Positions 2,163-53,900 of a stretch of 64,000 bases of DNA are shown here, piece by piece. Position numbers and translations under genes: made by a program. Location: the NCBI GenBank assembly GCA_030272155.1, contig CP126201.1, positions 4,128,501-4,192,500 on the forward strand. The letters are read 5' to 3'. The stretch's first letter is position 1. The number at the start of each line of letters is the position of its first letter. Origin of the DNA: Tetradesmus obliquus (taxonomy: Eukaryota > Chlorophyta > Chlorophyceae > Sphaeropleales > Scenedesmaceae). The notes beneath the pieces are model-generated. The model was not told the origin of the DNA. It worked only from the letters and a program-made list of their open reading frames with translations, and did no database searches.

Positions 2163-3236
2163 CTGCTGCTGCTGATCAGTCCCAGCAGCCCCCGCCGCCG
2201 TGTCGGTAACACGTCAAGGTAGCTGTGTGCATGGTGCCGGTAATGCTGCGCTGGCACTGCGGCCACACCATGATGCTGCTGCTGCTGTTGTGCCTGCAGC
2301 AGCAGCGACTTTGTGACAAGGTGCCGTATCGCCCAGGCCACAAACCCTGCGCCGTAAACCCTGGCGCCTGCCAGCTTGGGATGTATGTGGTCTTTGAGGA
2401 AGTCATCTCGTGTGAGGCCCAGCAGCGGCAGCAGCAGCGCATCATCAAACATGGCATTGTAGAGTGCATCCCGCACACTCACCATAGGCACGTTGTACCT
2501 GCACAGTGACAAATACAGATGTGAGGCGCTGGCGTCCTGGATGAGAACCACGTACAGAACGTGTTACTAAACGAGCCATGGGCGCGTCGACCCTGCACAG
2601 TGACAGCAAGGGAATGTGCACACCATTGCAGCTGTGAGGCGCTGATGTCTTATCAAAAGCATGTACACAACATGTTCAGGGACCAACAGCGCTGCCAGCA
2701 TGCATGATTTTCCTTCCCCCGTCTTGCTGGGAGCAGAGTAGCAGCAGCTAAACAGCAGCAGCAGCAGAGCCGCATCTCATCAGCAACCACACCCTTAACT
2801 TCATCAGTTGCCGGTGCTTTGCTGCTGTTCTTCAAACCCACCTCTTGGCTATCACTGCATGCATGTCCTCGCCAGTCTTCCAGTAAGCCCCTGGCATGCC
2901 CTTGTGTGTTATTTTGAAGGAGAAGCAGGCCATGCTGAGCAGTGCTGCCTGCGGCGCCTTGAGCAGCACCTTGCGCAACAACTGCTCATACCCGGCAACC
3001 TGCAGGCAGTCAGCAGAAGTTTTTTTGAGCAAGCAATGCGTGTGTGCATGGTCACGATCCTGTGATGCATCACAGCGGCTGCCATGTAGTGCCGTGCAGA
3101 GTGGCAGGCTTCAAGTTGGTGGCAACATCAGGATTGCAAAATCCGCAGGATGCCATGCAGTACAGCAGCTGCTTATGCATGCCTCTTGTATGAATGCGGC
3201 TGCATGCTGGCCTGCAGGCCGTGTGCTCTATGCCGC

Positions 3237-3268
<32 letters not shown>

Positions 3269-4442
3269 CCCACCTGTGGGTGTGAGAAGTCCAGGCACTG
3301 GCCAGATCCACACCCTGCAAGCAGTACACAGCAGCATGCTTGTCACGGGCAGCAGCAAAATGACTGATCAGCATGACCTGCATATCCTTCCAGTTCCAGG
3401 CCATGCTTGTACATAGGCAGTAACAGTGCTGGTCACATCCACTCCTGCTGGAGTGATTTGCAGCAACTGCAGCGCCAAATGTGCCCACCACGCATGCAGA
3501 CGCTGTGGCACGTGCACTGCACTGCGCTGTACGCACCATTAATTGAGTACTCCACGAGCACCAAGTCCGCATCAGCAGGCATGTCATGGTAGTAGCACAG
3601 CGCTGCTGCCATGGCCACTGTTGCGCCATGCCCCAGGTTTATGAAGCTGAATGTCACATCAGGAAAGGCAGCACGCATCCACGCCACTGTTTCTTCTGGC
3701 CAACTGCTGTCCTCGTTGAATGCATGGTGGCCAACTGTTACGCTGCCACCAAAGGCTACAACAGTTATGTTGCTGCCAGGGGTGATGAGTTTTTGAGAGA
3801 GCCGGTCCCAATTGCGAGGCAGCGGCACCTGCAGGCAAAGTCCAAGTGGCAGGAATGTGAGCCGATGTGATGTGGTCTGGGGTGGAAGTGTTCTTGGGCA
3901 ACAGGCAGGCTGCTACAGATAGGATGGCTGTGTTTCTGCAAATCTGAGAGAAATAGGTGAGAGGGACTGCCTCAAATAAGTATGCTGGAACTACTTGGCA
4001 CTTGTGAGCCGAACCACGACCTCGGAATGTACGTACGAGCCAACTCACGGTGAGAAAAGGTCCTCAACGTGTGCCACACGCAAATTAATACAGCTCAAAT
4101 AGTTTGTCCAGAATGACGGCCCCTCTGCGTGCTGCTGCTATTGCTGCTGTACATGCTGCTTCTGCTGTACCTGCTGCTGCTGCTGCTGCTATTATCCCCT
4201 GCATGCCCCACCTCGTATTTGTACGCTGACCGAAGTAGAGGTTCAACATGGTGGTCTTTTACAGCTAATGGAGCCTCCCAGATGGTTTTGAGCGCTGCCT
4301 TGGTGCTGCTGTCTGTCCTAGCGCCGTGGCGGGAACGGCTGTCAACGTCAAGTGCGGAAAACTCATATGCGCGGCACAAATAGTGACTGCTGAGCAATAC
4401 TGCGAATACTAATCTGACTACAACTTTAATGCGAGCGAGCAT
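1108..4442 (-). CDS. Secreted SGNH/GDSL-type hydrolase-like protein
   Basis: Exons in transcript order: a 5' exon from ATG 4442 to roughly 4095 (its donor is not resolved), then 3537-3828, 3274-3314, 2842-2999, 1559-2498 and 1108-1218 (stop TAG). The last five join in frame with GT-AG borders. The 5' exon begins with a hydrophobic stretch (VVVRLVFAVLLSS) typical of a signal peptide, then a Ser-rich stalk. SGNH blocks are visible: block I as FGGSVTVG (nucleophile Ser), NLGHGAT for block II, the Asn of VEYSINGC for block III, and DHIHPKLAG holding the block V Asp and His. A 41-nt micro-exon supplies NGCGSGQCLDF. Behind the catalytic part follow a His/Gln/Ser-rich linker and a Cys-containing C-terminal domain ending VAAYSD. 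This fits an extracellular or wall esterase/acetylesterase-like enzyme; the substrate is unknown. The join between the first exon and 3828 needs transcript evidence. Confidence 0.75.
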
Positions 4443-6763
4443 TGCTCATGCATCGGGGCGTGCCAGCGAGGTGGGTCCGACGGTGAGCGGTATCGACTTG
4501 CTCTCGTAGGTGTGAGCGCCACTGGAAGCACCACAGACATTCAGCAGTTCGCAGACTGCTATGGACGGTCACACCAACCAGCTTTGCTGGTAGTTCATGC
4601 TACTGGCTGTCATCAGTTTTTTGAACAGTTCCATAGCCCCTGGTGTCTAGCTGGCTACATCAGCCGAGTGCTGATCAAGCAAGGTATAAAATTGGTACAA
4701 CGTGCAAGCAGGTCAACCATTCCAAGTATAATGCAGCATAATGAGTACTCACATGGCTAGAAGTGGTCCCCCAAAAGGCCACCATGGCTGCTGAACCTCA
4801 GATTGCAAGCATGTGCAGCTCCTGCTTCTGCTCCTATGTGTCTTTTGTATTACCAGCATTCATAACAACACCTGGTCAGCGCCGTCCCAAAAAGGCCATG
4901 ATGCCTTTTGGCGGCAACGGCACTGACGGTCTTCAGCGCTCTTGTAGTCAGCCGTAGTCCTGGTAGTGACACCTTGTCAGTGACTCCATGCTTGTCAACC
5001 TCAACACAGGTGTGTGTGGTTTATATTTTCCTCGCAAGAAGCAGGAGGGGCAATAGTGTAAATTTCATGTATTGGGGTGTGTGTATGCCTGCTGTACTGC
5101 TTCATACCGCTGTCATTCAAAGTTGACTGTCATATTGACCATGTATGGCCATATGTACATTTTGTCGTCCTTAATCAGACAACGGGCGCTCAGCGCTCCC
5201 CATTGTCACCTTCGAGTGACTGAATGGGATGGGTTATGTGCATTGAGAGTAAGGTGTGTTCAAAGTACAAGCGACCTCGTCCTGAACTGCGATCAGCCCT
5301 ACTGCTGCCACAGGTGCCCCAAACAGACAGCTGCAGCCCAACTGCGGTGCTGCCAGCGCCGGTGATGCCAGGGTGCATGCATATAAACATGTAGCAGGTT
5401 CTCTGTCCTGCACATGATCTACCAGGAAACGAGCCACAGCCAAGTCAGCAACTGGAATGTTACACACAGAACAAAGCAGCGCAGCTGCAGCAGCCAGCCA
5501 ATAATCGCAGCGCCGCATAACAGACGACACAAGTCATCCTTTTGCATGCGCGCTCTCCTCCTGCAAGCTGCAGGCCCGCCTGCCCATTGCTGCTACTGCA
5601 GTATACAGAGTTGCAGCACTTCTGCTGCTCTCTTGCTGCGCGCCTTGCTGTGCAGCTGCTCCTGCAAGGCTGCTCCTGCATCTGCGTCCACTGCTAGACT
5701 ATGCAGCCTGCTGCAGCACCAGCCGGAGATGCGGCAACACAACTAGACCTGCGCAGGCAGCAGGAGCAGTGGAGACAAAGCAGCAGGGGCAGCACACCAG
5801 AGAGCTCCTGTGTAAGCATAGATCATACGCGTGTGTGTGCTGCTTGAGCAACCATGACAACTGAGGATGCACGGATCTCTGTGCGTGGTGCAGTAACAGG
5901 TGTGCATGCAACAGTAGAACATCAAGCGACGGCATAAAACCACATGCACACGTACAAAGCATTTTGGCGTCAGAAGGTGGAAGTTTTTTATTTCACTAAG
6001 CACAGCACAAGGCCGGCGTTCAGTGGTTTGAGTGAGATATTTAGCATCAGCCGCCCATACAGCCCAACAAAACACCGCGCTGCTTGCCACTGCTTGCAGG
6101 AAAGCAGCGCGGCTAAGCAAACAGGAACTACTCAGCCCTTTGAGATGCAAACAGAACACCCAAGTAGCCTGTGACCAGTCCATACAAGCAACTGCATCTA
6201 CAAAGCTGCCTGCAAGCACGCTGCGTGCGCTAGCGCAGCACAGTGCTGTTTCAACACGACCAGCAGCTAGCCGTGCATGCCACTGTGCTGCTGCCACAGC
6301 ACTTTCCAAGTGCTGAAACACCCTGGTGGTGACCTGGCTGTGGTAAGCATAGCCCATGTGTGCTGGCGACACTTGCGATGGTCTGAGCCTTGCCTGCAAG
6401 CAGCATATGATCTCACTGCGACGCTGCTGTCTATTGCTGGACTTCATCCTGACCTGCCAAGTGCGCAAGTGCACTGCAGCTGGTAAGCCGCCTGCTCTGA
6501 TGCTCCACCCATGCTATACTACCAGCAGTGCTTAATGATGGGCAAACAGGCACGATTAACAGCTCCCATGCACTGCCTGCTGCTGCTGATGCCAGCACTG
6601 CATGCGGCACCGCACAGCTGCTCGCTGCATGCGCTGCACTGCAGGGCATGCGCTGCTGCTGCTCCTGCTGCCGCACCCTTTTGTTGCTGCTGCGGCTGGT
6701 GCTGCTGCTGCTGGAGTGAGCACATGAGCCCACCTGCTACTACCCATCAACAGCGGCAGCTGT
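4443..6763. other. Intergenic region, no confident gene
   Basis: Only low-complexity open frames are seen. One minus-strand frame at 5743-6474 is open for 243 codons but is Ala/Cys/Ser-rich with no recognisable domain or splice pattern. Another at 5234-5530 reads like possible exon sequence (DLAVARFLVDHVQDREP), but I could not build a gene around it. Confidence 0.4.
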
Positions 6764-7244
6764 TTAAGGGTTGTTGCTGTTGGGGCCCTTCTTCTTGCCG
6801 AAGCCAACCACTGCAGCAGCACAAGCAAGGCAGACAGCAAACAAATAATCAGCAAGGGGTACTATGCATATGGAAGCACTCAGGCACGAGATGGACTGTG
6901 AAGCAGGCTGCAGCCCACACCCAGGCTGCTGCTACTGCTGCAGCTGCTGCACGCCTCTCACAAGCATCAAGGCAGCCCACAGCTACGCACCAACGTTCAC
7001 GAAACGGCGGTTGTACTTCACGCGCTTCATGGCACGGCCGGTGGGCTTCTTCTTCTTCTCCTGCTTGGGCACCTTGGGGGCCTGGCCACGCACCTTACCG
7101 GCACGGGCGAGCGAGCCGTGGACCTTACCTACGATTACAAACAAAAGGATCAACCACTTGACTTGACAGCCGAGCCAGCAGCACTAGAGCTTGAAAGACA
7201 GCAGTTCGGCGGCCTCAGGACAGCAGGAGAGCGCACTTACCCAT
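6764..7244 (-). CDS. RPS30: 40S ribosomal protein eS30 (not fused to ubiquitin)
   Basis: Three exons: 7241-7244 (ATG plus one base), 6991-7128 and 6764-6810 (stop TAA), giving a 62-residue protein. The translation starts [17 protein letters not shown], runs through the basic stretch [15 protein letters not shown] and the YNRRFVNV core, and ends [14 protein letters not shown], which is eS30 end to end. It is a small basic protein of the 40S subunit near the decoding site. In animals eS30 is made as a fusion to a ubiquitin-like domain (FAU); here the start codon lies directly before the ribosomal part, as in plants and algae. The first exon carries only four coding bases, so the junction GGTAAG is used both as donor and as the start of exon 2. 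All three junctions are GT-AG and in phase. Confidence 0.96.
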
Positions 7245-8960
7245 GATTGCTGTCTTCGGTTAATGCCACAAACTCGCAAAGAGGGGCCGAAACAGGTGAG
7301 CGGCAGTGGAAATGGTGCACAACACTCGCCTGCCACTTGTGTTATAACACAATCGCTGCGGTGCGTGGGGCTTGAAAGGGCTTCAAAATGTTTTAAGATG
7401 CGTAATTTTGCCAGTGTGTTCGCCTTGATGGCGTGCGCCCGTGCAGCACGAAAACTGCTCCTACTGCAGTGCCAAGCAGACCTGCTCTGATGCTGTCAGC
7501 TGTTTGAAGCTGAGTAATGCAAGCCATTGACCTGGCCTTGTGACGACATCTCATGGCTTTCAGAAAGTCTTACAGCAGCTACAGAGCTGCCAAAGTCGTT
7601 GTAGCAGCAAGCTCTGCCTGGCATGGCGCATATGCAAGTCGGACGCCAGTTGTCTGGTGGAGGCTGCCAATAAGCTGTGCTATGGCGCGAGCAGGCTCAG
7701 GACTTTGCAGACGTTAGTGTGCCATGGTAAGCACTGCGCAGATGCCAAAACAGACGCAGCAAGCGCAGACTTTTGTCTTGGCAGTGTTGCACTACAGTGC
7801 AGCCAGCTAGCTGGAATGCCTGCCGCTGTTTACGGCCAGCAGCTTCTGAACGCATGCAACAGTGATCTTGGTGACAGAATTGAGTCCTCAGCACACAGGT
7901 TGCAGGCAGGCGGCAGCACATGCTGAGGTGGCAGCTGCTACATCCGCACACGCAGCATGCGCATACTGCCAGCACAGCCGATAGCCAAGCAGCCAAGCAG
8001 TTGATGCTACCAGGCAAGTCAAGCCATGGATCTGCTCAGTAGCTGCCAAGCATCATGGCCGCACACAGCAATGGCTGCGCCATGCGACCCTCATAATCAT
8101 TTTGATCATCGTGTACTGTTTCAAGCCACAGCAACATGCACGCGAGATGGGAAGTGTGGCGGGAGCCAGCTGCAGCCTGCAGCTCGAGGCCACAGGTGGT
8201 GGATGTTGCACACGGCTGCGCAAACACTCCCCACCAGTGCTCAAAACCACTTCAAACATGTGACATGTGACAACATGTGACTCACTCTCGGGTGATAGCT
8301 TGCCTTCTCCTGTAACAAGCCTCTCTCTCGACAAACATGTGATCTGACAACTCGCGGCACTCATGCGTCCTGCCAGCTGCCCAATTTTCCTCGACTTTTT
8401 TTGTGACTCAACTGTGATTGCCTTTGATTGCCTTTGTTGCTCGTTCTTTTGGACAGAACACGCCGTGTGCCGCAACGTTGTAGGGCATCAGGTCTGCCAA
8501 CGTTGACGAGGAATGCATGAACTTGCGTGCATTGCTTTCTGGCTAGGCTGCAGTGCTGCTGCATGCTTGTCTCTTCGACCCTGCAGCAGCGCTTCTGCAG
8601 AGCCGCTGCAGCAGTGTTGTTTGAACACGCAAGCATGGTGTTTCCTGCTGCAGTGAGGGCAGGGTTGCCTTCTGTACGGCAAGGGCTACCTCTGCCAGCT
8701 GCTGTTCCAAGGCTGGCATCAGTGCCATTGGTTGCAACATATACAGTTACACGACAAAACTGAAGCAATCATATCAGGATGCTGTGTATGCATCTTGATC
8801 GTGTGTCAGATAGTCCATTGCCACAGGATGACCGGGCTGTTTTCACGTGCATGCTATGCTGCGCACCAGGGCTTTTGAGAACCCAAACATGCATTGTCCA
8901 ACAACAAACATGCGTTGTGCTTCATTACACACGCTGGGCTCCAAACCCAGCATCACCACG

Positions 8961-9135
8961 CAGTTGAGCATCATACTTGCTCATTATGAGCTTTGAGGCG
9001 GCCCCGCAGGAACCTGTCTACCTCGACCTGAGTATCACAGGCTCTATGGCTGTAGAGCCTGTGTTACTCGGATCAGGGTACACCGATTCCTGCGGGGCCG
9101 CCTTGAAGCTCATGAGCAAGTATGATCCGCAACTG
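8961..9135. other. 175-nt near-perfect inverted repeat (candidate small-RNA hairpin or MITE)
   Basis: The left arm runs from CAGTTG at 8961 through the GAGGCGGCCCCGCAGGAA block to GGCTCTA at about 9050. The right arm mirrors it down to CAACTG at 9130-9135. The arms are about 85 nt with roughly 85% pairing and a terminal loop of only about 6 nt around 9051. Mismatches are scattered as in a long stem with small internal loops. Either strand would fold into one long hairpin. No coding potential is evident. Candidates are a green-algal microRNA/siRNA precursor or a small inverted-repeat transposon remnant. Confidence 0.85.
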
Positions 9136-10922
9136 AGCCGATGGGCCCGCCTGCACTCACCCGATCCTCTGAGTCAGAGTCACATGATCTGCCATCATAT
9201 GTAGAGCTGGGCTGTGCCAGCAATGCAAGTCAGCGCAGATTGCACGCATCAGCACAATCAAAAGTCGCAGCATTCAATCACCTAGGTTGGTGGCAACAGC
9301 ACGATGTGTTGAAGCCGCCACCAGTCAAAAACAACGGCCTGCTTTGGGCCGTGTGTTGTGTGTGCTGCCAAGAATGTCCGCCAAGAACAAGGCTGTGCTG
9401 TACTGGCTGTATTGCCAGCACAACAGTCCAAACGTTTCCACAGCATCACGCAAGCTATGAATCCAGATCTGCAACAAGTCAAATCAGGTACAGCAAACAT
9501 GCGCTGCTGTGCCGGTACAAGAAACGCATGTACTCAAAACCGTCTCCGGTCAAAATGTAGCAGGCGGCCGGCAGCGATGTAGTGTTTTCACAGCAGTAGC
9601 AGCCAGCAAGGCTGACTCATGATCGTATCCATCAGCACTGTACTCGCATGACAAACCACCAGCGCACATGCGCCTGCGCAGACGCAGATGCCACGGCCTT
9701 CCGGATCTCATGTTGCACATCAAACATGATGGAAGAATGATGCCAGGACCCCTTGCCTTGCAACATCAGCAGGCGCAAACGCTCACCAAAACAGCCTGAG
9801 GATGTGTGTCACCACGCAGCACTGTGACAATGGCCAGCAGCGCGGTGACAAGCAGTAGGTTGAAGGGGCCTACCTAAAGCAAGCATTTGGTACAAAAGCA
9901 GCCACACACAATGCAAACAGAATGCGGCACACACCTGTGCTCAAGCGGCGATGCAAGGATTTTCGTGCATTTCTGTTGTGGGCCGTCACAGACACATGCT
10001 CAGCAGCAACACGCACCCAAGCCAACACGCAGAGTCGGACAGCTAGTAACCTGACAGCAGAAACAACCATGCTCTGAAAGTGCAGTAATAAGGCGTGCAG
10101 CGGCACCACAAACAGGAGAGAGCCGCTCCGGCCGCCACAACACGTTTGGCTGAGGCGTATTGGTATAGTGCTGAACACAGCATAGTATGACATGTCATGA
10201 GCACAAGCGCAGCACCTCGCCTGTGATGCAGAACCTGTTCCCCGGGGTCTTGTATGTGTTCACACCACTCATGCTCAACCCGTCCCCCAGCCAGGTGCAA
10301 TGCACCGCACCCTCAAGTGCGCCAGTTAACAACCCACCCCACCCCAGAGCGCAGGATGGTTTAGACACAAGCAGGAGACCACCACTCACGGCCCAAAGCC
10401 AAGCTTCCAAGCTATTATGATGCTCAACCTTTCAAGGTGTTATGATCATGCCTCCGTCACAGCACAGCCACAGGTATTATGGTGCATGCCCTTGCAACAG
10501 CATCAACAGCATTGTAAGCTGTCGTTTCAGCAATGCGGGCCCAATGTGCATGCAATGACAGTACCCCATGCCAAGAGACTCAAGTGGCAGGCACATGCCT
10601 TGTACAGCACACAATGACAGTATCCCACGGCACAACACGTATCCCACACCACCTGTTCCAAGTGGTGAACAAATGCATTGAACAGCACACTCACGCAGCT
10701 CTTGACAGCTGCGTGCCTCACAAAAAAGCACAACCAGGCGCTGCTGACACAGCCGCATGTACTGGCAGTACAGCGTGGTGCCATGTTTCCTGGTGGTTTA
10801 AAGCATGCGTTCCAGTGCCAAGGGGGGCCGCTGCATTGGAGGCTGCCATTCAGGCAGCGGGGCTGCTGCGCTCATACTCAGGAAGCTGCAGCCCCTTAGC
10901 ATGCTCCCCCTGAGGATTCTAG

Positions 10923-18935: not shown

Positions 18936-20297
18936 GGCTCAGGCTGCTACTGGGGTAGTGCTGCAGCCCTGCGCAGCACACAGGGAGCAGCATGCGGCTC
19001 CAGCTCTGGGTTCTGGAGTGGGTGTTTCTGTTGCAGCTGCTGGCTGCAGCACGCTTCAAGCTTCGCGGCACTGGCAGACAGCCGAAGGCATTGTGCAGAC
19101 TGCGCCTGCCAGGCGGGTTGATGCGCAGCAGCAACGGTGTATATTGCAGCTGCTGAGTCGTTGGTTTTGTGGACAGTCAAGTGCTTGTGTTCACGTGGAT
19201 GATCACACTAAAATCGCAGATGCGGCATCCAGCGCAGGCATCAGCGTGCGTAAAGTCTGTGTGTGAAAGGTCAGATCTCTTGCCGACATGGCTGCGCTGC
19301 CGCTGTTGCAGTGTTGGTGCATTGCATGTTGGTGCTGCCTGACAAAGCAGCAGTCTGCTGCTTGAGGACTACTGATGTCTGCATGGTTCTCTGCGATGCT
19401 GTTGCTAATGGGATGTGCATATGGCACGATGCGTGTTGGACTGTGTTTGCAAGGCAGGTCTGCACAGGCCAGCGGCAGATGTGCCACATCGGATGTGCGC
19501 ACTGGTGGCTGCTGTGTTGCACACTGGGATAGTCTGATAGTCTGAAGGGACTGATGCAGTGTTTGCGGTTTTCCTTCTGACCGGCTGTACACACGGTAAG
19601 GTTGTGCATACTTTGGATGCTTGCAGATATCAAGCCACACAGCATGGCACCTAGATTTGTAACACGGTGTTGATTCATAACAATCTCAAGAATCTTTCCT
19701 TACGCACCTAATACGTGTAAGTGAAGTTGACAAATACTTTATGGGATATACATGTTACAACGGTGCTCACAGCTTCGACAGCTGTGAACACCAAAAGTCG
19801 GCATGCAAAGCCGCCAACCGACAGCACTAATTGACCCATGCCAGCTGCCTGCAGCAACATATCCTCATGCCCAACAGATCAGCAACCTGGCAGCCACCCG
19901 GTAGCCGTAGCGGTCACCGCTGACGGTCAGTGATCAATGCACATGACGATGTGAACGTTGACACAAAACAAGAGTGAGCAGAGCAAAGGGCTGCAGGCAT
20001 GCACTGCAGCAGCAGCAAGCTGCAACCAACAGGAACAGCCTGAACAAACCTCGGACACAAAGCGGTGGCAGTGTGGCTGAGTTGAGCACCATCACCACAC
20101 CCCACTCACAACTACTAGTGCTGGTAGCGCATGTGCGCTCAGTGTGCGGCAGAAGTGCTATGTGAAACCCTGCTGCCACTGCCGCTGCTGCTGCCGCCTA
20201 CTGCTCTGCAGCCTGGCGTGTGAACCTGAACTAGGGCTTGTTGCTGCCAAATCAGCCGTGCTGCTGCCACCGCTGCTGCTGCTGCCGCCGCTGCCGC
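18936..20297. other. Convergent 3' flank, no gene seen
   Basis: Between the convergent ends of SmD1 and the ClpR1-like gene. No domain or exon was recognised on either strand. A TGTAA motif at about 19659 (plus) could serve as a green-algal polyadenylation signal for SmD1, though it is over 700 bp from the stop codon. Confidence 0.4.
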
Positions 20298-20892
20298 CTA
20301 CTGCTCCCCGGCCTGCCTTGTGAACCTGAACTTGGGCTTGTCGCTCGCAAAGTAGCCCTGCTGCTGCGCCATGGCGTCCTTTGCGATCTTGCGGAAGCGG
20401 TTCATCTTGTAGCCAGGCACCAGCTTGTCAACAAGGCCCTCCTCGTAGGCCTGCTTGACGCTGAAGTAGCGCTTGCTGCAGAGCGCAACACAATATCGAA
20501 CAAGCAAGGGTGAGTGTAAGTAGTGTGTGCAAGAGATGTGTTCAGTGTCCTTCATAACGCCTGCTGCACCCTGAAGTAGCGCTTGCAGCACAACAGACAA
20601 ACAAACAGATGCACACAGTTGATGTAACAGGGCAAGTGGCAGTTGTGGCTGGGCACCAGCTTGTCAACCAAGCCTTCTTTGTAGGCCTGCTTCACACTGA
20701 AGTAGCGCTTGCTGCAGCACACACAAACAGAAGCAGTACCAAGAGGTTCATAACTACAGGTTTCCCACTGCGCCGCTCACCGTGAGAGGTACTCCTTCTG
20801 GCAGGTGGCCAGGTCCTTGCCGGTGCTGCGTGCCAGGATGGCTGCGTAGTACTTGGTGGCGTACTCCAGCTCGTTGGCCTGGTGACACAGGC

Positions 20893-20933
<41 letters not shown>

Positions 20934-21005
20934 GCAGTGAGAGGTTTGCACAACCACAGGATGGCTGCGTAGTGCTTGGTGGCGTACTCCAGCTTGTTGG
21001 CCTGT

Positions 21006-21074
<69 letters not shown>

Positions 21075-22688
21075 TGCACACGTGTCATTTGGCACATGGA
21101 CGCACGGGGCAGTGGTGGGCTGCAAGCCACCTGCAGCTGATTCATGAGGGTAAATACAACTTGCCAGCAGCATGCACGTCCCTATCATGTACAAGTTAGT
21201 GCCCAGTTTTGACCCCTCTGCACCTGCAGAAGCTGCATGGTGAAGGAACCAGCATGAACAACGGCAAAGCCGCCGCACCTGCAGCTGTGCGTCCACCGCC
21301 TGCCCAAACACCCGGTACTTGATCAGCCCAGCCAACAGCTGCATCGTCTGAAACGTATCAACCCACAATACCCATCATGCAGCAGCAAAGCCGCCGCACA
21401 TGCAGCTGCGCGTCCACCGCCTGCCCAAACATGCAGCTCATGACCAGGCAAGCCATAGTCAGGCAAGCCAAATGCTGCATCACCAAAAACGTATAACTCC
21501 CCAAAAAACACCGTGCAACACCGTGCAACAGCAAGCCGCCGCACCTGCAGCTGTGCGTCCACTGCCTGCCCAAACACGCGGTTCATCACGGGCGGCGCCG
21601 TGCTGATCTTGGCGTGAGGGAAGGTGTAGCGGTGCCCCTTCTGGCCTGCTGCCAGCAGCACCGCAGCCTGGTTCTGAGCCTTCCAGGTGACACCTGCGGC
21701 GCGATGATAAGCCAGCCACAGCAGCACAGCACAGCACGTGGGCACGAATGTGACACCTGCATCCCGCACAGCAAGCACGTGAGCGCACATACCTATGCAA
21801 GCACCGGATACACTGGCCAGGCCGCACGTCCTGCAGTCCTGGCTTGCATGCACACAACCTCACATGAAAATATAGTGATTTAGGCGACACGCCCACAAAC
21901 CTGCGCACCAGTCGCGCACCTGCTGTACAGCAATGCAGCAGAGGCAACGAACAACCAACACACGTGAAGCCGGTTTCGCTCACCTGTGTACAGCGGGGCG
22001 CGCGGGAAGCCCAGTGCCGCCAAGATGGCAACAAAAACAATCAACAAGCAACGCCCCACAATGCATCAAAGGCCCAGCACACAGCAAGGTAACAACATAC
22101 CCCACCAACCTGTGTACAGCGGGGCGCGCGTGAAGCCCAGCGCCGCCCAGATGGCGTAGAACATAGCACCAACAAGAAACACCCCACAATGCATTGAAAG
22201 TGCAGCACACAACAAGGTAACAACACACCCCACCAACCTGTGTACAGCGGTGCCCGTGTAAAGCCCAGTGCTGCCCAGATGGCGCAGCACACATCCATCT
22301 CAACAGCCAATACCCTCAAGGCACACAGAACAACAACTAGTACCCCCACCTGTGTACAGCGGGGCACGTGTGAAGCCGAGTGCCGCCCAGATGGCGTAGA
22401 ACTCGTTGTCTGCTGACACTGCCTGGCCCTGCTCATTGATGCAGCCCGTGGAGTTGAGGTACACGTAGATGGGCTTGGCGCGGTTCTTGTCATCGAAATC
22501 AAGGTAGTAGCACTGCGCAACCACCAGCTCCGTCACAGACGGCAGGAACTGCAGACAACGCGGCACACAAAGCAGCAGCGTCAGCCAATGTAAACAGCAG
22601 CACACAGCAGCACAGATGACACAAGTGCGCCACCACCAGCTCAGTCACCGTGGGCAGGAACTGCACAATGTATGTTGTCATACAGCAG

Positions 22689-22730
<42 letters not shown>

Positions 22731-24478
22731 TCTGCCGTGACAATGTGCAAATGCGTGGACATGAGTGTGTCAGGTGGTAGCACTGCACGTAAGCATTGCG
22801 CACAGCAAGGAAGGGGTACCAGGCCCAAGCACAGCAGGCTGGAGCAACGCCCTGGATGGGGTCCGCTGCTGCTGCTGCTGCTGCTGTTGCTGCTGCTTTC
22901 ACGGCTGCTGCCAGTCCTGCATGCTTGTTGCTGACCTGGCGCACACGCATGCAAACCAAACCTACGATGCAACAGCGACACCAACGTCGTACGCCGCCGC
23001 AGCTGCTGCTGCTGCTGCTGCTGCTGCTGCATTGACACGCCATGCCAGTCTGTCACAGCCGCCTACACTGCTGCTGCATTATCTCACCGGCATGCTGATG
23101 TAGATCACGCGCTGCTGCAGCAGCAGCGACGGCAGGTCAGGCGGGTTGCCAAACCGCTCCGCCTCTGGCAAGAAGATAGGCCTGCCCTCGGGGTAGCTCT
23201 GGTAGTCACCATACGCTGCGCGAGCACCTGAGTAGCTGCGGCCCCTGCCTGCCATTGTTGCTGCTGCCGCGCCGCCAGGGCCGCCTGCTGCTGCTGCTGC
23301 CGGCATGCTGTAGCTGCTGCTGCTGCTCTGCGTGGCTGCGCGCGCTGCAAAGCCGAGTCCTGCAGGGTTTGAGGGGTCGAAGCGCTCGCCGCGCATGTAA
23401 TGCTTGCTGGATAGCGTGGCCTGCAGCAGCAGCAGCAGCGGTGGCAAAAGGGTGAAGGTCAACACCCTATTCTTCGGCGCCAAGCAGTGCACTGTGTTTT
23501 CAAAGCATGGCCCAGTGCACAGTTGCCGATGTGTGCATCCTGCAGCAGCTGCGGGTGCTGCGGCCTGACAGCTGCGCTGAGCAAAGCCAAACGCATTACA
23601 GCTGTGCAATCGCTTGCAGGATGTTGGCAGCGCAGCGCATTGCAGGGATCCCAGTGGTCGCAACACCAGAATTTCAGCGCATCAATCGGCACATGAACAT
23701 AATGCGCATGCTGGCATGCTGCAGACTACCGGCTGCTTGCATTCACACGACGCTTGCAAGCATGGTGATGCCAGTCAGCTGCAAGCATATGCACGCTGCT
23801 GTCCTGGTTTGACGTAACAGCAGCAGCTGCATGCCGTGATTCTACAAGTTCCTTCAACAAATACCATGCGCAGCTGATAGCTGCAGTCATTCCCTACCAG
23901 AAAGCAGCAAGCAGCACGTGCATGGGCACCTTGCTGGTGCTGACATAGTAGCATTTGTACTGCACCACATGCTAAGACAAGCATCATGTATTGCATGTAT
24001 GCCAATATTAGCTGTTGTGCATCACAACAACACACTAGCAGACTGCGGGCCAGCTGCTACTTTGCTGCTGTCACGACTTCACCACTCTTCTGCCTGCCAA
24101 CCATGCCACATCGCTAGCTGGCCAGCTCACCGGATCAGGAGTGTTAGTGCCAGGCCCTGAAAGCCCCAGCGCAGCTATCTGCTGCGGTGTGAGGCCGTAG
24201 AGTGGCTTGTCCTCCTGCTGCTCCTCTGCTGCTGCCTGCTCCTCCTGCTGCCTGCCTGGAGCGAACCACTCATACTGGTCTGCTAGCTGGTTCGTAAGAC
24301 GGAAATACTCTGCATCTCCATCGGAGTATTCGCTCGAGGGCCCGAACACCTGCCACTTGTGGGCTGCTGGCACCGTTCTGCTCTTTGATGGCGAGATCAC
24401 TGGCCGCAGTGCTACGCGCGCGCTGCTGCGGCCGGCGTGCGCCACTGCACGTCTGCTGTCATGCAGACGGCAGTGCAT
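20298..24478 (-). CDS. CLPR1: Chloroplast ClpR1-like non-catalytic subunit of the Clp protease
   Basis: Exons 24131-24478, 23088-23420, 22350-22548, 21545-21693, 20781-20878 and 20298-20475 (stop TAG) join in phase to 434 residues. The frame is open upstream to 24583, but the Met at 24478 gives a basic, Ser/Ala-rich plastid transit peptide. Clp hallmarks: PPDLPSLLLQQRVIYISMP, VTELVVAQCYYLDFDD, KPIYVYLNSTG, AAVLLAAGQKGHRYTFPHA, and the handle region NELEYATKYYAAILARSTGK. Where active ClpP has its Ser and His, this protein has KAQNQAA (Asn at the Ser position) and ISTAPP (no His), so it is a ClpR, not a ClpP. The NR...A.D and NELEYATKYY positions resemble plant ClpR1 most. It would form part of the plastid ClpP/R ring. 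Five of its splice junctions have extra copies in the introns. Confidence 0.92.
20651..20713 (-). repeat. Copy of ClpR1 exon 6 start with its acceptor
   Basis: Encodes, after CTGCAG, KRYFSVKQAY-EGLVDKLVP as in the true exon at 20475, with one Glu-to-Lys change and then divergence. It lies in intron 5. A further 17-bp scrap of the same acceptor (GAAGTAGCGCTTGCAGCA on the plus strand) is at 20571-20590. Confidence 0.88.
20957..21003 (-). repeat. Copy of ClpR1 exon 5 start
   Basis: Encodes ANKLEYATKHYAAIL beside the true ANELEYATKYYAAIL at 20835-20878. It directly adjoins the long (CAG)n run at 21005-21073. Confidence 0.88.
21005..21073. repeat. Long (CAG)n microsatellite, about 23 units
   Basis: An uninterrupted AGC/CAG run in ClpR1 intron 4. 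On the transcribed strand it reads CTG. A second run of similar kind lies at 20893-20935, next to the true exon 5 acceptor. Confidence 0.95.
21264..21435 (-). repeat. Two copies of ClpR1 exon 4 end with its donor
   Basis: CAAAGCCGCCGCACCTGCAG at 21264 and CAAAGCCGCCGCACATGCAG at 21386 (plus strand) each repeat the exon 4 end at 21545-21590 (FGQAVDAQLQ plus donor GTGCGGCGG). Spacings are about 122 and 145 bp, so this is a three-member tandem array including the real junction. Confidence 0.88.
21981..22286 (-). repeat. Three copies of ClpR1 exon 3 end with its donor
   Basis: Blocks starting at about 21981, 22108 and 22236 repeat the exon 3 end at 22350-22400 (encoding AIWAALGFTRAPLYT and the following donor), together with intron sequence such as CACCCCACAATGCAT. 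The period is about 120-128 bp. The copies keep the open frame and the donor GT. Confidence 0.9.
22626..22664 (-). repeat. Copy of ClpR1 exon 3 start with its acceptor
   Basis: Encodes FLPTVTELVVAHL after GTGCAG, against FLPSVTELVVAQ in the true exon 3 at 22510-22548. It lies in intron 2, next to the (CAG)n run at 22690-22728. Confidence 0.88.
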
Positions 24479-26707: not shown

Positions 26708-30480
<3,773 letters not shown>

Positions 30481-44349: not shown

Positions 44350-47097
44350 TCAAGCCGTAGCAATCTCTGCCTGGCTGCGCAGGTCTTTCCTGATGGCATT
44401 TCTTGCCCGCCTGACGCCAGCCTCCCGCGCCTTTGCCGACCAGCCCTGCCGCAAGCTATGCATGTTGTTGTACAGGCATCCAATATACTCCTGCATGCTG
44501 CTGGCCTGCACAACCTGTACAGCAGGTGCTGCTGCAGCCGGACCTTCAGGAATGCTCCCAAACTGCCCTGCCGGTGCTGCCCCAACAGCAGCAGCAGCAG
44601 GTTGTTGAGCTGCTTCAAACCCAGCTGCACCAATTGTCGGTGCAGCAGCATGATTTGCATCATCGTACATGCTGACTGTACTGCTGCTGCTGCTGCCGCG
44701 GGACGGCTGGCGGCACACGCTGCAGTCGCTGCAGCTGTATCTGCACATGCCGCGCAGGCCCAGCAGCATACCTGGTGCGTCGTCACAGAAGCCTTCGGAG
44801 GCCCACTTGCTGCAGCAGGAAATGAGCAGGAACAAACGTCAGGGCAACACAGAATATGCTTACACATTGAATGAGGACCAACAGTGGTTGAGCATGCATG
44901 CACCACAGTAAGCCATGGTGTTTTCAGCTGGTTGCTACCGCCGCCGCCGCTGCCGCCGCCGCAACAGCACCAGGAGGTAGCAGCTCTAGTTGAGGCGTCG
45001 CTTTCAAACCGCAGTGCATGAGCAAAGCCCAACGAACGCATCGCAGATCACCCTTTGAAGAAAAACACAGCTGGCACAGTGCAGCCTGCCACCACCGCCC
45101 ACCTGCACTGCTCGTTCTTGTCTGTGCACTCCGCCGCCAGGCCCAGTGGGTCGTCCTGCCCTGCTGGCAGGTTGTGCAGCCAGGTGGTGGCCAGCCAGGG
45201 CAGGCTGGAGGCCTGCAGGAAAAAAACAAACAGCAGCATGTCATGCGTTGCGCGCTAGACGTGTACCGCAAGCAGTGCAAGGCAGGTTGTGCAGCCAGGT
45301 GGTGGCTCCTACACAACAATGCCATTGAATACGCACCTTGCTCCTCCCAAAGGGCCGCACACAACATGCGCTGCAGTTGGGTCGGGCGTCTGCCCGTCCA
45401 CCAGCATATTCCAAACAGCAACGCGCTGCCCTTGCGGAAGCCAGTCAGCTTCAGGCCTGACTGCTTGCCTTTCAATTGCTTGCCTTCAAAGCTAGGTTCG
45501 CACACAACAAAACACCCACCGCGCAGGACACTCCGTGCTTCCACAGATATGGCCGCACACAACACAGCACACTGCCACACAGCACGCACCTTGCTCCCAA
45601 AAGTAGGGCCGCACACAACATGCGCTGCAGTTGGGTCGGGCGTCTGCCCGTCCACCAGCATGTTCCAAATCAGCAGTGCGCTGCCCTTGCGGAAGCCAGT
45701 CAGCTTCAGGCCAGACTGCTTGCCGCGGCACAGCTCGCCAGCGCTTGGTGCAGGCTGCAGCTTTAGCACCTCATCTTCTGACCGCCGCTGCCCGTGCGCT
45801 GCGAGCCCTGCTGCAGCTACCTGCTCGTGCACCTGCAACAACAGCAGCAATTAAACATTTATGTTGGGTTGGTGATGGAGGTGACGACACCAAGGGTTCA
45901 TTCAGATGCATCCCACAGTCAAGACCCTCAGCTGTGTTAAGTGGATGCTGTTCACAACAGTTGTCAGTTCTGCAGGTGAAGCAGGTGCTGCTGTGTGCGC
46001 AGGCTTCAACTGACTTGTGGCAACGTCTGCTTGCTGGTATGCATGCCTACAATGGTGGGTTTCAGCTGCTGCTGGCTGTGTGCTGCACACAAGTGTAGCA
46101 TACATTTTGCTGAGCCTATGCTGCATTTGTTCATGCCATGCCAAGCATGCTGCCCAGCACCATCAGATGCTGCTGCTGCAGCTCTGTTGCTGCTTCCTAT
46201 CAAGCAGCAATCCTGCGCCTGCCTCCCAGGCGAATTCAACAGAAGCTCTACGCCGTCAGTTGATACGCCTCAGCACATGCTAGCTCTATTGCTACCGCTA
46301 ATACAGCTGCAGGAGCTATTAAGTTGCAGGGTTGCTGTTGCTGCTCTGTTACACACTGCATTGCACACACACCTGCTTGCCAGCATCAATAAGCCTCAAG
46401 TGCTCCCCTGGCTGGGTGCTGCCCCTCCAGCTGCCACCGCGGGCCCAAGGGAACACAAGACTCCAGCCACTGCCACTGCTGCTGCTGCTGCCAGCTGCTG
46501 CTGCGGACGCTTCAGGCTCGGAAGGGACATCTGACAGGAACAGCAGCAGTGTGGCTGATCTGAATCGCTGGAAGTCTTCTGTTGTCAGCCTGTCTGTAAG
46601 CAGGTCCATGTGCAAGGCAGTCTGCTCTGCTGTGGCAAAGCCTTCAGTCATCTGCAGGCAGGATACAGAAAATAAAGAGCAGCAAAGCAGCAGGGCTTGG
46701 CGTCAGTGCTGTCCCTGTCATGCACAAAGTGCAACAGATAAGCCGCAATACATGCATGCTTTCTGCTTAATCACCAAAAAGCGGTGATTAACTGGACTGC
46801 ACAGTAGTGGCCGTCTCTCCCATCCTCTGTTGATGCAATGGTGTGCACGTGTCAACATGCACGTGTACTGCTGGGTGCAGCAGGATCACATGCCTTCAGC
46901 AGCACATCCTGCTGCAGTGGCACAGATGCACAAAAAACTGCCCGAACAGCAATCATTCAAAGCTGAACATTGTGTGTCGGCAGTTGATGGCCAGCAGTGC
47001 CGCAAGCGCACCTCCCAGCCTTCAAAGTGCACAGATGGCACAGCAGTCCAGTTGGCGATGCGCTGCTCGATGTCATACAGCAGCGTGTCATCACTGT

Positions 47098-48739: not shown

Positions 48740-49562
48740 CCTGGTAATGTTATGTGCCCGGGTGCTTTTCAGCTATCAAATGGTTGTTGCTAGCGGAACG
48801 ATTCGTGTGGCCTGCCGGTTTCGGGTTGCGGGTGACAGTTGAGCCGGGAAACGTGCAAAAGACTCGAACCGCTGCTATCATTCACGCTTGATGATAATTT
48901 TAGGCATAAAAATGCTGTAACAGCTGCGGAAGCTACGATATGCCGCTCCGCGGTGATTCTGTTGTAACAGCACTACACGCAGCGCGATGCAGTACACCTC
49001 TCTGGTTCCCTGCCCGGCCAGTGCTGCTGGACTCGGTTCCCTGTCCCGTCAGTTCTGTTGGTTTCACAGAAATCATCTGGATCTAGATTATACAACTGGG
49101 GAGTTTGTATGGAGCAGCTGCTGGGCAGCAGCGCTTCTTGCTGCCATCACGGCAGGTGCACTGCATGCGGCGTTGGCAATGGCCACTGCAAGCGTCATTG
49201 CACAGTGTTGCTGCGCCTGCATTCCAGACGTTTTTTACCTGTACCTTCATGCGTCCAACAATTATACAGCGACAAACCATGCTAAAGTGTACCCAGGACC
49301 AGCTGCTGGGCGTAGCCAGCTGTGCAGTCCTGCACGCACTGCATTGAAAACTCAGCAGGCACAATGCAATACTGTATTGGTATTAATTGCAATGCTTCCA
49401 TCGAGCTGCTCACCATTTGCCACACACACCCCTGCAAGAGCTGCTCCAGCAAGCACGTCAATTGCTGCTGCAGCTGGCGGTGTATGCTGCCACCACCACC
49501 AGGCTTCACCAGCAGCGGCCGATTCACACCTCTCTGCAAGAGCTGCTGCAGCTGGCGCGTCA
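48740..49562. other. Intergenic region; possible small plus-strand gene
   Basis: From ATG 48987 a plus-strand frame starts MQYTSLVPCPASAAGLGSLS, which resembles a plastid transit peptide, and stays open into the 3' exon of the prolidase gene. A divergent promoter with the prolyl hydroxylase would fit, but no domain is recognisable, so it may be chance. Confidence 0.3.
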
Positions 49563-50466
49563 TCAGTTGCTGCTGCAGCTGGCGTTGTGTGCTGCCATGT
49601 ACGCCTCGATCTCTGCCGCCTCTTTTGGCATGCCAGCCGCCATGGTCAGGTTGAAGTGGCCACTGTCTGTCACCAGCACATTATCTTCGATGCGCACACC
49701 ACCCATGTCCAGCAGCGCTTCCACAGCAGGCTTGACCAGCAGCGGGGCCTGCAGCACAGCACACATGGCAGCAGTGCACAGGAGTCTAAAATGATGTGAA
49801 CTTGCTGCATGTCCAGCAGCGCTTCCACAGCAGACTTCGCCAGCAGCGGCGCCTGCAGCACAACACAGCAGCAGCACAGGCGTACAGGAAAAAAAGTCAG
49901 CCGCATTGTTGGGATCCAGGTGACGGTTTTGACACCGCCCATGTCCATCAGCGTTTCAACAGCAGGCTTGACCAGCAGCGGCGCCTGCACAACACCATAA
50001 GCCAGCAGCACAGGTGATGCTTTATGATGAATGAAAAAATTCATGTCGGAATTCAACGTTGCAGCAGCATGTGTCATGCTGTTTGCTGGCAGTGCAGCTT
50101 GCAAACGGCAGCAGCACATGGGCGAGTGGTGTTTTCAAATATGCAATGGTAGGAAACATACTGCGGCACGCGGCATGCTGCCTCCACCATGGCACTGCGC
50201 CCTGACCCTTCTGGAGCAGCACTCAAAGCATCAGCACTAGCATTATCATCAGCTGCAGCAGCCTCGCCTGCTTAGCGTCGCTGCACACGCGCAGGAGCAG
50301 CAGCGGCAGCACATGCATCATCAACAGAAGCAGCAGCCTCACCTGCTTGGGGTCGTTGAATGCGCGCTGCAGCAGCAGCGGCATGAGGTACAGCCCCGGC
50401 TCCACAGTGATGACCTGGCCCGCCTGCAGCCGCTGCGGCACAGGCCCAACGTCACTCACCTGCGGC

Positions 50467-50514
<48 letters not shown>

Positions 50515-50610
50515 GGCAACAACATTAGTGGCATGAAGTACAGCCCGGCTCCACAGTGATGACGTGGCCCTCACTCAGCCGCTGCGGCACTGGCCCCACG
50601 TCACTCACCT

Positions 50611-50649
<39 letters not shown>

Positions 50650-50740
50650 TCAGCAGCATGAAGTACAGCCATGGCTCCACTATTATGACGTGCCCCTCAC
50701 TCAGCCGCTGTGGCACTGTCCCCACATCACTCACCTGCGG

Positions 50741-50778
<38 letters not shown>

Positions 50779-50866
50779 TTAGTGGCATGAAGTACAGCCC
50801 TGGCTCCACAGTGATGACGTGGCCCGCCTGCAGCCGCTGCGGCACTGGCCCCACGTCACTCACCTG

Positions 50867-50937
<71 letters not shown>

Positions 50938-53900
50938 AAACATAGTCACAGCACTGCCAATGTCAAATAAACCCAAGACAGTGCTGCAGACCATGGGCTG
51001 CACCCTAATCCTACCCCACCCCACTCCCCAAACCCTAAATCACAGTACACATCTCTGCACGCTGTTTGATACTCACATCATGGACATCCAGCCCAAGGAA
51101 GTGCCCTAGTCCATGCGGTATGAACACTCTGTCGATGCCCGCATCTGCTAGCGCATCTGCCGAGCCCTTCACCAGCCCCAGCTGCTGCAGCCCGTGCGGC
51201 AGGCCATGGGCTGCACCCTAGTCCTACGCCCCCAAACCCTAAAACATGGTACAAACCCATACAAAACCCTGCGATGCTCACATCATGGACGTCCAGCCCA
51301 AGGAAGTGCCCCAGGCCATGCGGCATGAACACCCTGTCGATGCCTGCATCTGTCAGTGCATCTGTTGAGCCCTTCACCAGCCCCAGCTGCTGCAGCTGCT
51401 GCAGCAGCAGCCGCCGTGTGGACTGCTGGATGTCTGCCCATGACACGCCCGGCTGGATCTGTGACAGCGCGTGCTGCTGCATACTGAGCACGACGTCGTA
51501 GACTGCAGGGCATGGTTGAGGGCAGCAAGGGGCACACTCAGTGAAATTTACACTTTACAGCACAGGGGGCAGCGGCGCAGGGTGCACTAGATGAAAGCTT
51601 GATTCATGTGACAAACAGGAAGTGACACAATACCTTGTACCAGAGCAACTGGACCAAGGCATGGCTGCTTTGCTCTGCATAACCATAATCCGACCTTTGG
51701 TTCAGAAATGTCCCAAGAGTCTTCCCAACCATAAAGTACAGCGCTGCTCGCAATGCAGCTAGCTGCTGCAAGCCCCAGCGCCCCTGCGCACTTACTGTCT
51801 CGCTGCTGCGCTGTGAACTTGCCGCTTGCAGGGAAGGTGCGCGTGATGTCTGCAGTGTAGTGCCTGAACTCAGCACCTGCAGGGCAGCAGATGTACAGCT
51901 GTGTTGGGGGCCTTTCATGGCTGTGAGGCACATGGACATCTGCATGCGGCACCCACGCCAGGGCCAGCACCAGCACCAGCACCAGCACCAGCACCAGCAC
52001 CAGCACCAGCACCAGCACGCACTCGCCACACGTTGTGTGACAGTCCACTGCAGCATGTCCTGCTGCAGCTGGCCCAGTCAAGCTGTACAGCTGTGACATG
52101 CACAAGTTCACAGATGAACAGGGCATCTGAGGCTGCACTGCCTGCAGCACCCACCTGCATCAACCAGCACCAGGTCATTTGGCTTCACCGTAGCGCTGTT
52201 GCGCTCGTAATGCAGAATGGCCCCATTCGGCCCAGCACCCACAATGCAAGGATATCCCAGCTGCATCAGCCCTGCCTGCCCCGCTGCATGTGTAAATGCA
52301 GCTTCCAATTGATACTCCTTGAGGCCAGGTTTGCATGCTGCCCACATGGCTTTGTGTGCTGCTGCGGAGCCGCGGCTAGCTTCCATCAAGCAGCCCACTT
52401 CTGCTGCTGTCTTCGTCGCCCTGCAGCGGTGCAGTGTGGACTCTAGGAAAGCAGTACTGAGCTGGATCTGTTGACCTGTACTGCTGGACCTGGCAGCTGT
52501 ACTGCCTGTACCGCCAGACTTTACTGCTTGTAGTGCCTGCAGGCCTGCCAGCTGTTGTACTGCCTGCTGCTGGTGCTGCGCAAAGTGGGGCAGGCCCAGC
52601 AGCTGAGCCTGCTGCTGAGGGTCATCTCCCGGCAAGATTTGCAGCGTCTGAACATCGGCATGCTGCTGCTGCACGTATTGCGGCAGGTCTTCTGCGTAGA
52701 TGCATGCGTCTGCGCCTGCTTGCTCTGCGAGCTGGTCCAATCTGGGCAGGCCTCCCCACCACACTGCTGCGTCTTCCGGCACTTTTGGCGCCACCAGCGT
52801 AAAGCGCTGCAGCATTGCAAACAACGCACATCATCAATGAGACTGCACATTATCAATGAGACTGCAAAACAAACATGATAATCGTGGGTTGAGTTAGAAG
52901 TGCTCGCCCTTATGAGCTGCCTGGCTGGTTCACACCACACTGCTGCATCCTCGGGCACTTTTGGCGCCACCAGTGTGAAGCGCTGGAGATATAGACAGGA
53001 TTGCAACAGCAAACATCAGCGGTTCGTGGTCACATCCTGATGAGTTGCCTGGCAGGTGTCATCAACCGCAGCATCAACGGTGATGCCTAGGTATGTGTGT
53101 CATCATGATGTAAGCACGTCTGCAAGCAGGGTTCCACGCTGCCCTGTATGACGCATGCCAGCTAAGATATCGACCCTGTCCACAACAATGCTGCAAATGT
53201 CTGCTGCTCTGGATTCCTGCTGCTGCTGCTGCTGCTGCTGCCCACCTGTGTCTCAGGGTCCAGCAGGCACGCAAACCCTGGCTCAGTCACGCCAGTGAGG
53301 TAAGCAAAATCCGAGGAGGGCCTGAACTTGTAGTACACATCAGCGCCATTGCGGTGCTGCAGGTCGCCACCAGACACATATATCAAGCCGCCTGCAGTTG
53401 CAGTGGTGGTTCAGCATCAAGGAAGCATTAGGAAGATTGCAGATGAGGTGAGCAAAACGCGGCAGCGGACGAACTGTCCGGCAGGTGGGCAGCTGTGCCA
53501 TGCTGGCAGGAGATGTAAAGAAGGACGAAGTTGTGCGGCTGCTGTGGTGTGCTGCAGCAGCCTGCCTGCTGCTTTGAGGAATGTTGCGTCTGGCCCAAGC
53601 TGGTGGGCTGAGCCTGCTGTAGTAAGAGGTGTGGCTGCGAAGCTACAAAACGCGGCAGCGCACAAACTGTCTGGCAGGCGGGATGCTGTGCCATGCTGGC
53701 AGGAGTGGCGCTGCAACAGCCTGCCTGCTGCTTGGCTGTCCTGCTGCTTGGCTGTCCTGCTGCTCGGCCGCATAGGTGCTGTCCCTCTGCCCAAGCCAAC
53801 GCCATACAACAACAGGCAGTGGTGCAATGGGCGCTGTGCCCGGCCCAAGCTGGTGAGCTGAGTAGCTGCTGCTTTGGCGAGAGGCGTGGCTGCGAAGCTA

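Follow-up and report, generated by a model that had tools for sequence, protein, structure and literature searches.

Why should the edges of coding exons, splice signals included, recur as diverged copies inside the adjoining introns? The question is raised by a gene for the Clp protease subunit ClpR1 in a 64,000-nucleotide stretch of the green alga Tetradesmus obliquus (GenBank assembly GCA_030272155.1, contig CP126201.1, positions 4,128,501 to 4,192,500), hereafter referred to as the window. A sequence-only reading of this locus had proposed repeated tandem duplication centred on splice junctions in what appeared to be one peculiar gene, an interpretation that is partly supported by the present analysis. 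Tandem copies of exon edges are found in ClpR1 and in several other genes, and they probably stem from recurrent short tandem duplications that are tolerated where they cross an edge of the coding sequence (CDS).

The ClpR1 gene and its junction copies

ClpR1 occupies window positions 20298–24478 on the minus strand and comprises six exons, with a joined reading frame that is intact at 434 amino acids and GT–AG boundaries at every intron.

24131–24478, 23088–23420 and 22350–22548, minus strand: ClpR1 exons 1 to 3, intact joined frame
21545–21693, 20781–20878 and 20298–20475, minus strand: ClpR1 exons 4 to 6, intact joined frame

The protein matches Pfam family PF00574 (CLP_protease) with an E-value of 1e-24, and all 246 residues of PDB chain 7eko_I align with its residues 185–430 with zero gaps (E 1e-147). 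The database title of this chain gives just Clp proteolytic subunit, and we take it to be Chlamydomonas ClpR1. Family membership and the nearest known algal subunit, as given by the Pfam and PDB matches, both agree with the ClpR1 assignment. The 7eko_I alignment spans the second to fifth splice joins, to which all five copy-bearing junctions belong, and since it crosses these joins without a gap, the outermost splice sites give the conserved protein. A DNA search of the 104.66-Mb genome (17 contigs) with ClpR1, by a method that skips very common words, returned one full-length match among the best 40 of 290 candidates scored. No Rfam family matched the window at gathering scores.

Self-comparison confirmed that five of the ten splice junctions are accompanied by one to three extra copies each, nine in all: three of the exon 3 donor, one of the exon 3 acceptor, two of the exon 4 donor, one of the exon 5 acceptor and two of the exon 6 acceptor. 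All nine lie on the intron side, donor copies downstream and acceptor copies upstream of the true sites, as the sequence-only reading had described. Each carries 27–69 exon bases, and exon-side similarity stops 3–19 bases beyond the junction. Identity ranges from 72 to 96%, and neighbouring copies are spaced 110–145 bp apart; in the arrays of exons 3 and 4, the copies together with their spacers can also be aligned with one another. A tenth copy, representing a sixth event that the sequence-only reading had missed, lies in the 3' flank and repeats the final 70 CDS bases together with the stop codon and a short piece of flank, without a splice site. Self-comparison listed no purely intronic duplicate pairs inside ClpR1.

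20187–20267, minus strand: copy of the CDS end and stop codon in the 3' flank (original 20287–20367; 84% over 81 nt, unit 100)
20559–20603, minus strand: degenerate exon 6 acceptor copy nearest the exon, AG lost by eye (87.5% to the exon over 32 nt; 87% to the neighbouring exon 6 acceptor copy over 45 nt; spacings 110 and 126)
20643–20729, minus strand: exon 6 acceptor copy (original 20407–20481; 87% over 75 nt; CTGCAG kept)
20957–21004, minus strand: exon 5 acceptor copy (original 20834–20881; 96% over 48 nt, unit 123)
21259–21334, minus strand: exon 4 donor copy, far (93% over 58 nt; GT kept)
21380–21455, minus strand: exon 4 donor copy, near (self-comparison family, spacings 121 and 145; GT kept)
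21981–22029, minus strand: exon 3 donor copy, farthest, from self-comparison; strongest donor of the array (CAG/GTGAGCG, the slash marking the splice site)
22108–22162, minus strand: exon 3 donor copy, middle, from self-comparison
22236–22290, minus strand: exon 3 donor copy, nearest, from self-comparison
22626–22665, minus strand: exon 3 acceptor copy (original 22514–22553; 87.5% over 40 nt, unit 112)

Other proposed properties of the copies fared unevenly. Splice dinucleotides are kept in all seven ClpR1 copies that were scored and, by eye, the AG is kept in 22626–22665, but it is lost in 20559–20603. The acceptor of the exon 5 copy even outscores the true acceptor (7.7 vs 4.7). A common reading frame is not maintained: including the stop-codon copy, the spacings are 100, 110, 112, 112, 121, 123, 126, 126, 128 and 145, and only three of the ten are multiples of three. 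Nor does decay of the innermost copies follow a clean rule, given that scores against the exon run 39, 45 and 36 from the nearest through the middle to the farthest exon 3 donor copy.

Two copies offer in-frame coding options. Use of the exon 5 copy acceptor (20781–21001) would add an in-frame 123 nt, or 41 codons, through a poly-alanine tract, and one exon 4 copy (21279–21338) could serve as a 60-nt exon in frame; both were picked by the gene finder.

Copies of exon edges in other genes

The survey covered 254 kb, consisting of the window and 19 random 10-kb pieces taken from contigs C1 and C2 only; one piece made up entirely of N (L021) was dropped from every count. Exons in the random sample were predicted by a gene finder trained for this work, which yields some false exons and sometimes calls copies exons, so that sample rates are rough and diluted. 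Loci of the Clp family were chosen by family membership and not by pattern. ClpR1 was included in the coverage, 50-mer, substitution, tract and splice-score counts and left out of the event-placement count, as it had been chosen for the pattern. All P values assume independent events and substitutions, and copies of the same array are not independent.

The pattern is not confined to one gene, recurring in a prolidase gene, in three of five Clp paralogs and in two of four proteasome loci. Clp genes at C1:10.09 Mb, C15:3.79 Mb and C1:1.02 Mb carry copies at many junctions, and those at C2:4.25 and C2:3.72 Mb carry none at family-supported exon ends. By eye, the proteasome locus L042 has two donor events, L043 has one, and L041 and L044 have none; the automated event tally for these loci (one edge, two exon-only) is lower than this reading of three donor events. 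Adjoining copies accompany 11/32 exon ends in the Clp genes, 3/18 in the proteasome genes, 5/12 in prolidase and 5/11 in ClpR1 (the start-codon side being counted as the eleventh end). The corresponding figures are 11/327 predicted ends in the random sample and 3/56 in the rest of the window.

Internal stop codons occur in one Clp family match (G000:C2:4251883-4252107) and in one proteasome family match (C8:2744584-2744865), in both cases possibly reflecting read-through introns or junction copies.

Within the window, the prolidase gene part at 49423–51502 (minus strand) displays donor, acceptor and stop-codon-crossing copies as in ClpR1. Edge copies outside ClpR1 are as follows.

51282–51502, minus strand: prolidase exon with a donor copy, from self-comparison
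50343–50459, minus strand: prolidase exon with an acceptor array, true site plus three copies, from self-comparison
49603–49748, minus strand: prolidase exon with two acceptor copies, from self-comparison
49525–49594 and 49423–49489, minus strand: prolidase pair crossing the stop codon (CDS end 49563–49565 by eye)
52757–52988, minus strand: acceptor copy of prolidase exon 52155–52806 (89% over 56 nt; differences 5 synonymous, 0 non-synonymous)
45311–45724, minus strand: donor copy of exon 45590–45832 (89% over 164 nt, unit 251) in a gene that we guess from its predicted protein to be prolyl-hydroxylase-like

Prolidase exon 50343–50459 opens with GTGAGTGAC immediately after CAG, so that an acceptor and a consensus donor overlap; in its array, the true site and all three copies read CAG/GTGAGTGA.

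Edges, exon interiors and introns

Local duplication is widespread in this genome. The 254 kb contain 134 local duplicate pairs (55 in the window, 79 in the random pieces) compared with one in an order-2 Markov control, which excludes chance, and 14 of the 19 random pieces hold at least one pair.

The sequence-only reading would have fallen had exon interiors been copied into introns as often as exon ends, and it survived this comparison. In the window and sample, 50-base exon ends are copied within the next 500 intron bases in 24 of 406 tests, compared with 6 of 2087 tests placed at least 75 bases inside the exon. The frequency declines with depth, from 9/379 at 25–49 bases through 3/336 at 50–74 and 3/687 at 75–149 to 3/1400 at 150 or more. 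Intron 50-mers recur downstream in their own intron in 56/1508 cases, and a reversed-sequence control gave 0/4716. Mostly masked windows and introns outside 100–2500 bp were left out of this test.

Duplicate coverage amounts to 5.0% at exon ends, 5.3% in introns, 1.7% in exon interiors and 13.5% in the rest. When 10 bases were required on both sides, duplicates spanned 18/428 junctions (4.2%), 5.5% of intron positions and 1.3% of exon-interior positions; ClpR1 passes this strict rule at just 2 of its 11 junctions because similarity often stops within ten bases of the junction. Base coverage therefore matches tolerance without targeting, as junctions are no more duplicated than introns. Centring on splice junctions holds insofar as edges are copied far more than exon interiors, but duplications in ClpR1 and prolidase also run across the stop codon, which argues against a process specific to splice signals. 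Much of the apparent centring probably follows from tolerance, together with the better detectability of exon-derived copies.

Other duplications were also noted. A minisatellite at window positions 28582–28846, with spacings in multiples of 37 bp and up to 97% identity, stops five bases from an acceptor in a gene judged by eye to be kinase-like. At 30–294 there is a tandem pair with a 98-bp unit (91% over 168 aligned positions) and no predicted exon. One random piece (L014) holds a large array at 2991–10000, with a smallest spacing of 312 bp and up to 100% identity; its GC content is lower (0.49), and it has one predicted gene.

Constraint and array structure

Arrays with at least two copies allowed substitutions to be polarised, copies scoring below 26 and arrays with fewer copies being dropped. 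Changes unique to the exon were 16 synonymous to 6 non-synonymous, and changes unique to a copy were 23 to 33, spread over the three codon positions as 16/14/26. This indicates that the exon-joined copy is constrained and that the others are close to neutral. Splice sites are weaker in copies on average, scoring 5.2 vs 6.3 for true sites (P 0.009; 35 of 37 copies scorable, copies below 26 dropped). The dinucleotides are nevertheless kept in 32 of these 35 copies, and 16 of the 35 copy sites equal or exceed the true site in strength.

In the Clp gene at C1:1.02 Mb, exon 1 bears an edge array of five copies and four 50-bp spacers at a spacing of about 118 bp and 97–98% identity. It is a head-to-tail array of one unit and hence a minisatellite; at most ClpR1 sites, the copies number one to three. 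Copies and spacers likewise alternate at ClpR1 exon 3 (four and three) and at a donor of the C15 Clp gene (three and two). At the ClpA donor pair (C1:10093822), a CAG tract is present in the spacer and again in the following sequence, an arrangement expected from plain tandem duplication.

Origin of the copies

Tandem duplication across exon–intron junctions, as originally proposed, is borne out by self-comparison, and we consider it probable that recurrent short tandem duplications, tolerated across CDS edges, enlarged by unequal exchange and subject to decay, explain the copies. Such duplications would produce copies at spacings of roughly 60–250 bp in this genome and 100–145 bp in ClpR1, with ordinary slippage or break repair as the presumed initiating lesion. 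A unit inside an exon would lengthen or break the protein and mostly be removed. Where a unit crosses one CDS edge (donor, acceptor or stop codon), the outermost boundary would stay joined to the intact exon and would alone remain in use, the other boundary copy being left behind outside the coding sequence. With two copies in place, unequal exchange may generate arrays of three to five, in which the inner copies would lose constraint and then decay.

Observations on event placement, synonymous differences and array ends weigh against this account. Of the 53 events that were counted after 13 exon-only ones had been removed, 38 cross an edge (13/19 in the sample, 9/18 in the window without ClpR1, 15/15 in the Clp paralogs and 1/1 in the proteasome genes), whereas uniform placement among tolerated positions would give 17.7. 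An exon-derived copy remains detectable longer because its comparison partner is the conserved original, and the expectation rises to 26.2 (P 0.0007) if edge copies are two-fold more detectable and to 31.3 (P 0.03) at three-fold. The five Clp paralogs show 15 edge-crossing events and no purely intronic ones, some of these edges belonging to predicted exons without family support.

This excess would follow from a mutational process aimed at CDS edges, for instance by breaks or template switches close to splice sites or by duplications that begin preferentially in GC-rich exons, an explanation that we regard as doubtful although it retains more weight than any other alternative. Young events among the Clp genes (98–100% identity in the C15 gene, 97–98% in the C1:1.02 Mb gene) and a GC content of 0.63 in exons vs 0.56 in introns speak for it. 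However, duplicates cover 4.2% of junctions compared with 5.5% of intron positions, stop codons are crossed as well, and both intron-only events (six in the sample, nine in the window) and exon-only events (nine and one) occur. Of the events above 93% identity in the window without ClpR1 and the sample, 7 of 13 cross an edge vs 4.5 expected (P 0.12). With a four-fold longer detectability of edge copies, the excess also fades (34.7 expected, P 0.2), and the random-sample exons are predictions. Tolerance and detection are accordingly taken as the main cause, to which an edge bias may add.

A broader version, to which we give somewhat less credence again, posits a continuing process that preferentially duplicates CDS edges, so that introns of many genes grow outward from their own junctions, stocked with near-complete spare sites, and exon-copy turnover swaps the edges. 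If true, such turnover would explain the synonymous excess described next and would provide a route to intron lengthening, intron sliding and new splice sites.

Exon–copy differences in 33 copies are 119 synonymous to 73 non-synonymous, a share of 0.62 vs the 0.42 predicted for neutral copies next to a constrained exon; this tally dropped eight copies with alignment scores below 30 and the stop-codon copy, and with low-scoring copies included it becomes 147 to 124. Counting one copy per array gives 65 to 32, and two copies of a single exon of the C15 gene differ from it by 8 to 0 and 7 to 0. Among copy-unique changes, 41% are synonymous, compared with 26.5% expected (P 0.013) or with 33% if the mutation bias is stronger (P 0.13). 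By our reasoning, the synonymous share cannot be lifted above the neutral-copy value by gene conversion between an exon and its copies. A modest synonymous excess in the copies is accounted for only in part.

Selection on functional copies, serving as spare or regulated splice sites or as alternative coding segments, would account for this excess, for the retained dinucleotides and for the copy sites that match true-site strength; the in-frame 123-nt extension of ClpR1 exon 5 and the in-frame 60-nt exon at exon 4, both choices of the gene finder, would suit it too. We nevertheless judge it improbable: in ClpR1 only three of the ten spacings are divisible by three, all codon positions take up copy-unique changes, the splice sites of copies have a lower average strength, and the conserved protein needs none of the copies to be complete. 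Splicing-in and translation of copies as a general rule was rejected because most spacings are not divisible by three, and by eye no frame-keeping route was apparent in the donor arrays looked at, except in those with an inner AGGT.

In the three closely read arrays with alternating copies and spacers, the sequence past the last copy on the intron side is unlike the spacer, which plain tandem duplication alone does not give. A target-site-like insertion, leaving copy, spacer, copy and then unrelated sequence, is a possible origin, but fewer new assumptions are needed if an older duplication was followed by exchange within the copies. On our reading, the first duplication in these arrays is old enough for its flanks to have diverged, and unequal exchange within the copies came later.

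Slippage or microhomology at CAG/CTG tracts is a very unlikely driver of the duplications. Tracts (at least 12 bases) do adjoin some copies, as had been pointed out, and (CTG)n tracts separate the units of acceptor arrays in prolidase and the C15 Clp gene, but there is no enrichment: of 43 junction events, 9 contain a tract or have one nearby, where random stretches drawn from these genes would give about 16, an observed count that masking of tracts before the duplicate search may have lowered. Assembly artefact or collapsed haplotypes can practically be dismissed, given copies that are 72–100% identical with many unit lengths, in unrelated genes and on several contigs, and the single full-length ClpR1 match among the 40 of 290 candidates scored.

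Significance and comparison with known systems

Introns can evidently fill with ready-made spare splice sites, and the copies look like harmless leftovers of small duplications. Gene finders will mistake such copies for exons, which by eye happened at six places in the window. If the pattern is general, an extrapolation from about 280 kb, a single genome would hold hundreds or more datable splice-site duplications. It would then offer a testbed for spliceosome choice among near-identical neighbours, where, judging by the protein, the outermost of up to five is taken, as well as for intron lengthening and for tandem duplication feeding intron gain.

The AGGT model resembles the present case in that a short tandem duplication brings ready-made splice sites. 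In that model, an exonic AGGT segment supplies both ends of a new intron, whereas here the unit contains one existing junction and the copy lies in an existing intron. AGGT intron gain was rejected for ClpR1, whose units hold one pre-existing donor or acceptor inside introns that use the outer sites. A 2007 study by Zhuo reportedly traces introns of human genes to tandem arrays. The AGGT and break-repair models of intron gain are reviewed in PMC3443670, of which a part was available.

Introners and introner-like elements, as presented in the accessible portion of PMC9860276, likewise consist of repeated intron sequence with splice signals; there, however, one family is inserted at many loci, whereas each algal copy matches its own exon. 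They were rejected because the search with ClpR1, the only gene so searched, matched among the best 40 of 290 candidates the gene itself, stretches matching its CAG/CTG tracts and the adjacent stop-codon copy, with no dispersed intron copies.

Internal repeats at human exon–intron boundaries (PMC2812944) and novel Drosophila introns formed by tandem duplication (PMC2891723), both sources being available in part, are similar in that tandem repeats at such boundaries alter splicing structure. As far as these portions go, those works seek gained introns or changed exons, whereas the algal repeats form silent intron content at many junctions. Among the literature matches listed, none describes junction copies on this scale.

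A close parallel is the potato RdRp gene, in which, according to the available part of PMC4974935, one tandem duplication across an intron–exon boundary made a new intron. There, too, the unit crosses the boundary, copying the branch site, pyrimidine tract, acceptor and exon start, and the nine copies at five of ten ClpR1 junctions are boundary-crossing in the same sense. The potato case is a single event that gave a new intron via a cryptic donor, whereas the alga shows many junctions per gene, donors as well as acceptors, and several copies. Single junction-crossing duplications were thus already known, on the evidence of that partial source; their occurrence at many junctions and in several genes has no counterpart among the matches listed.

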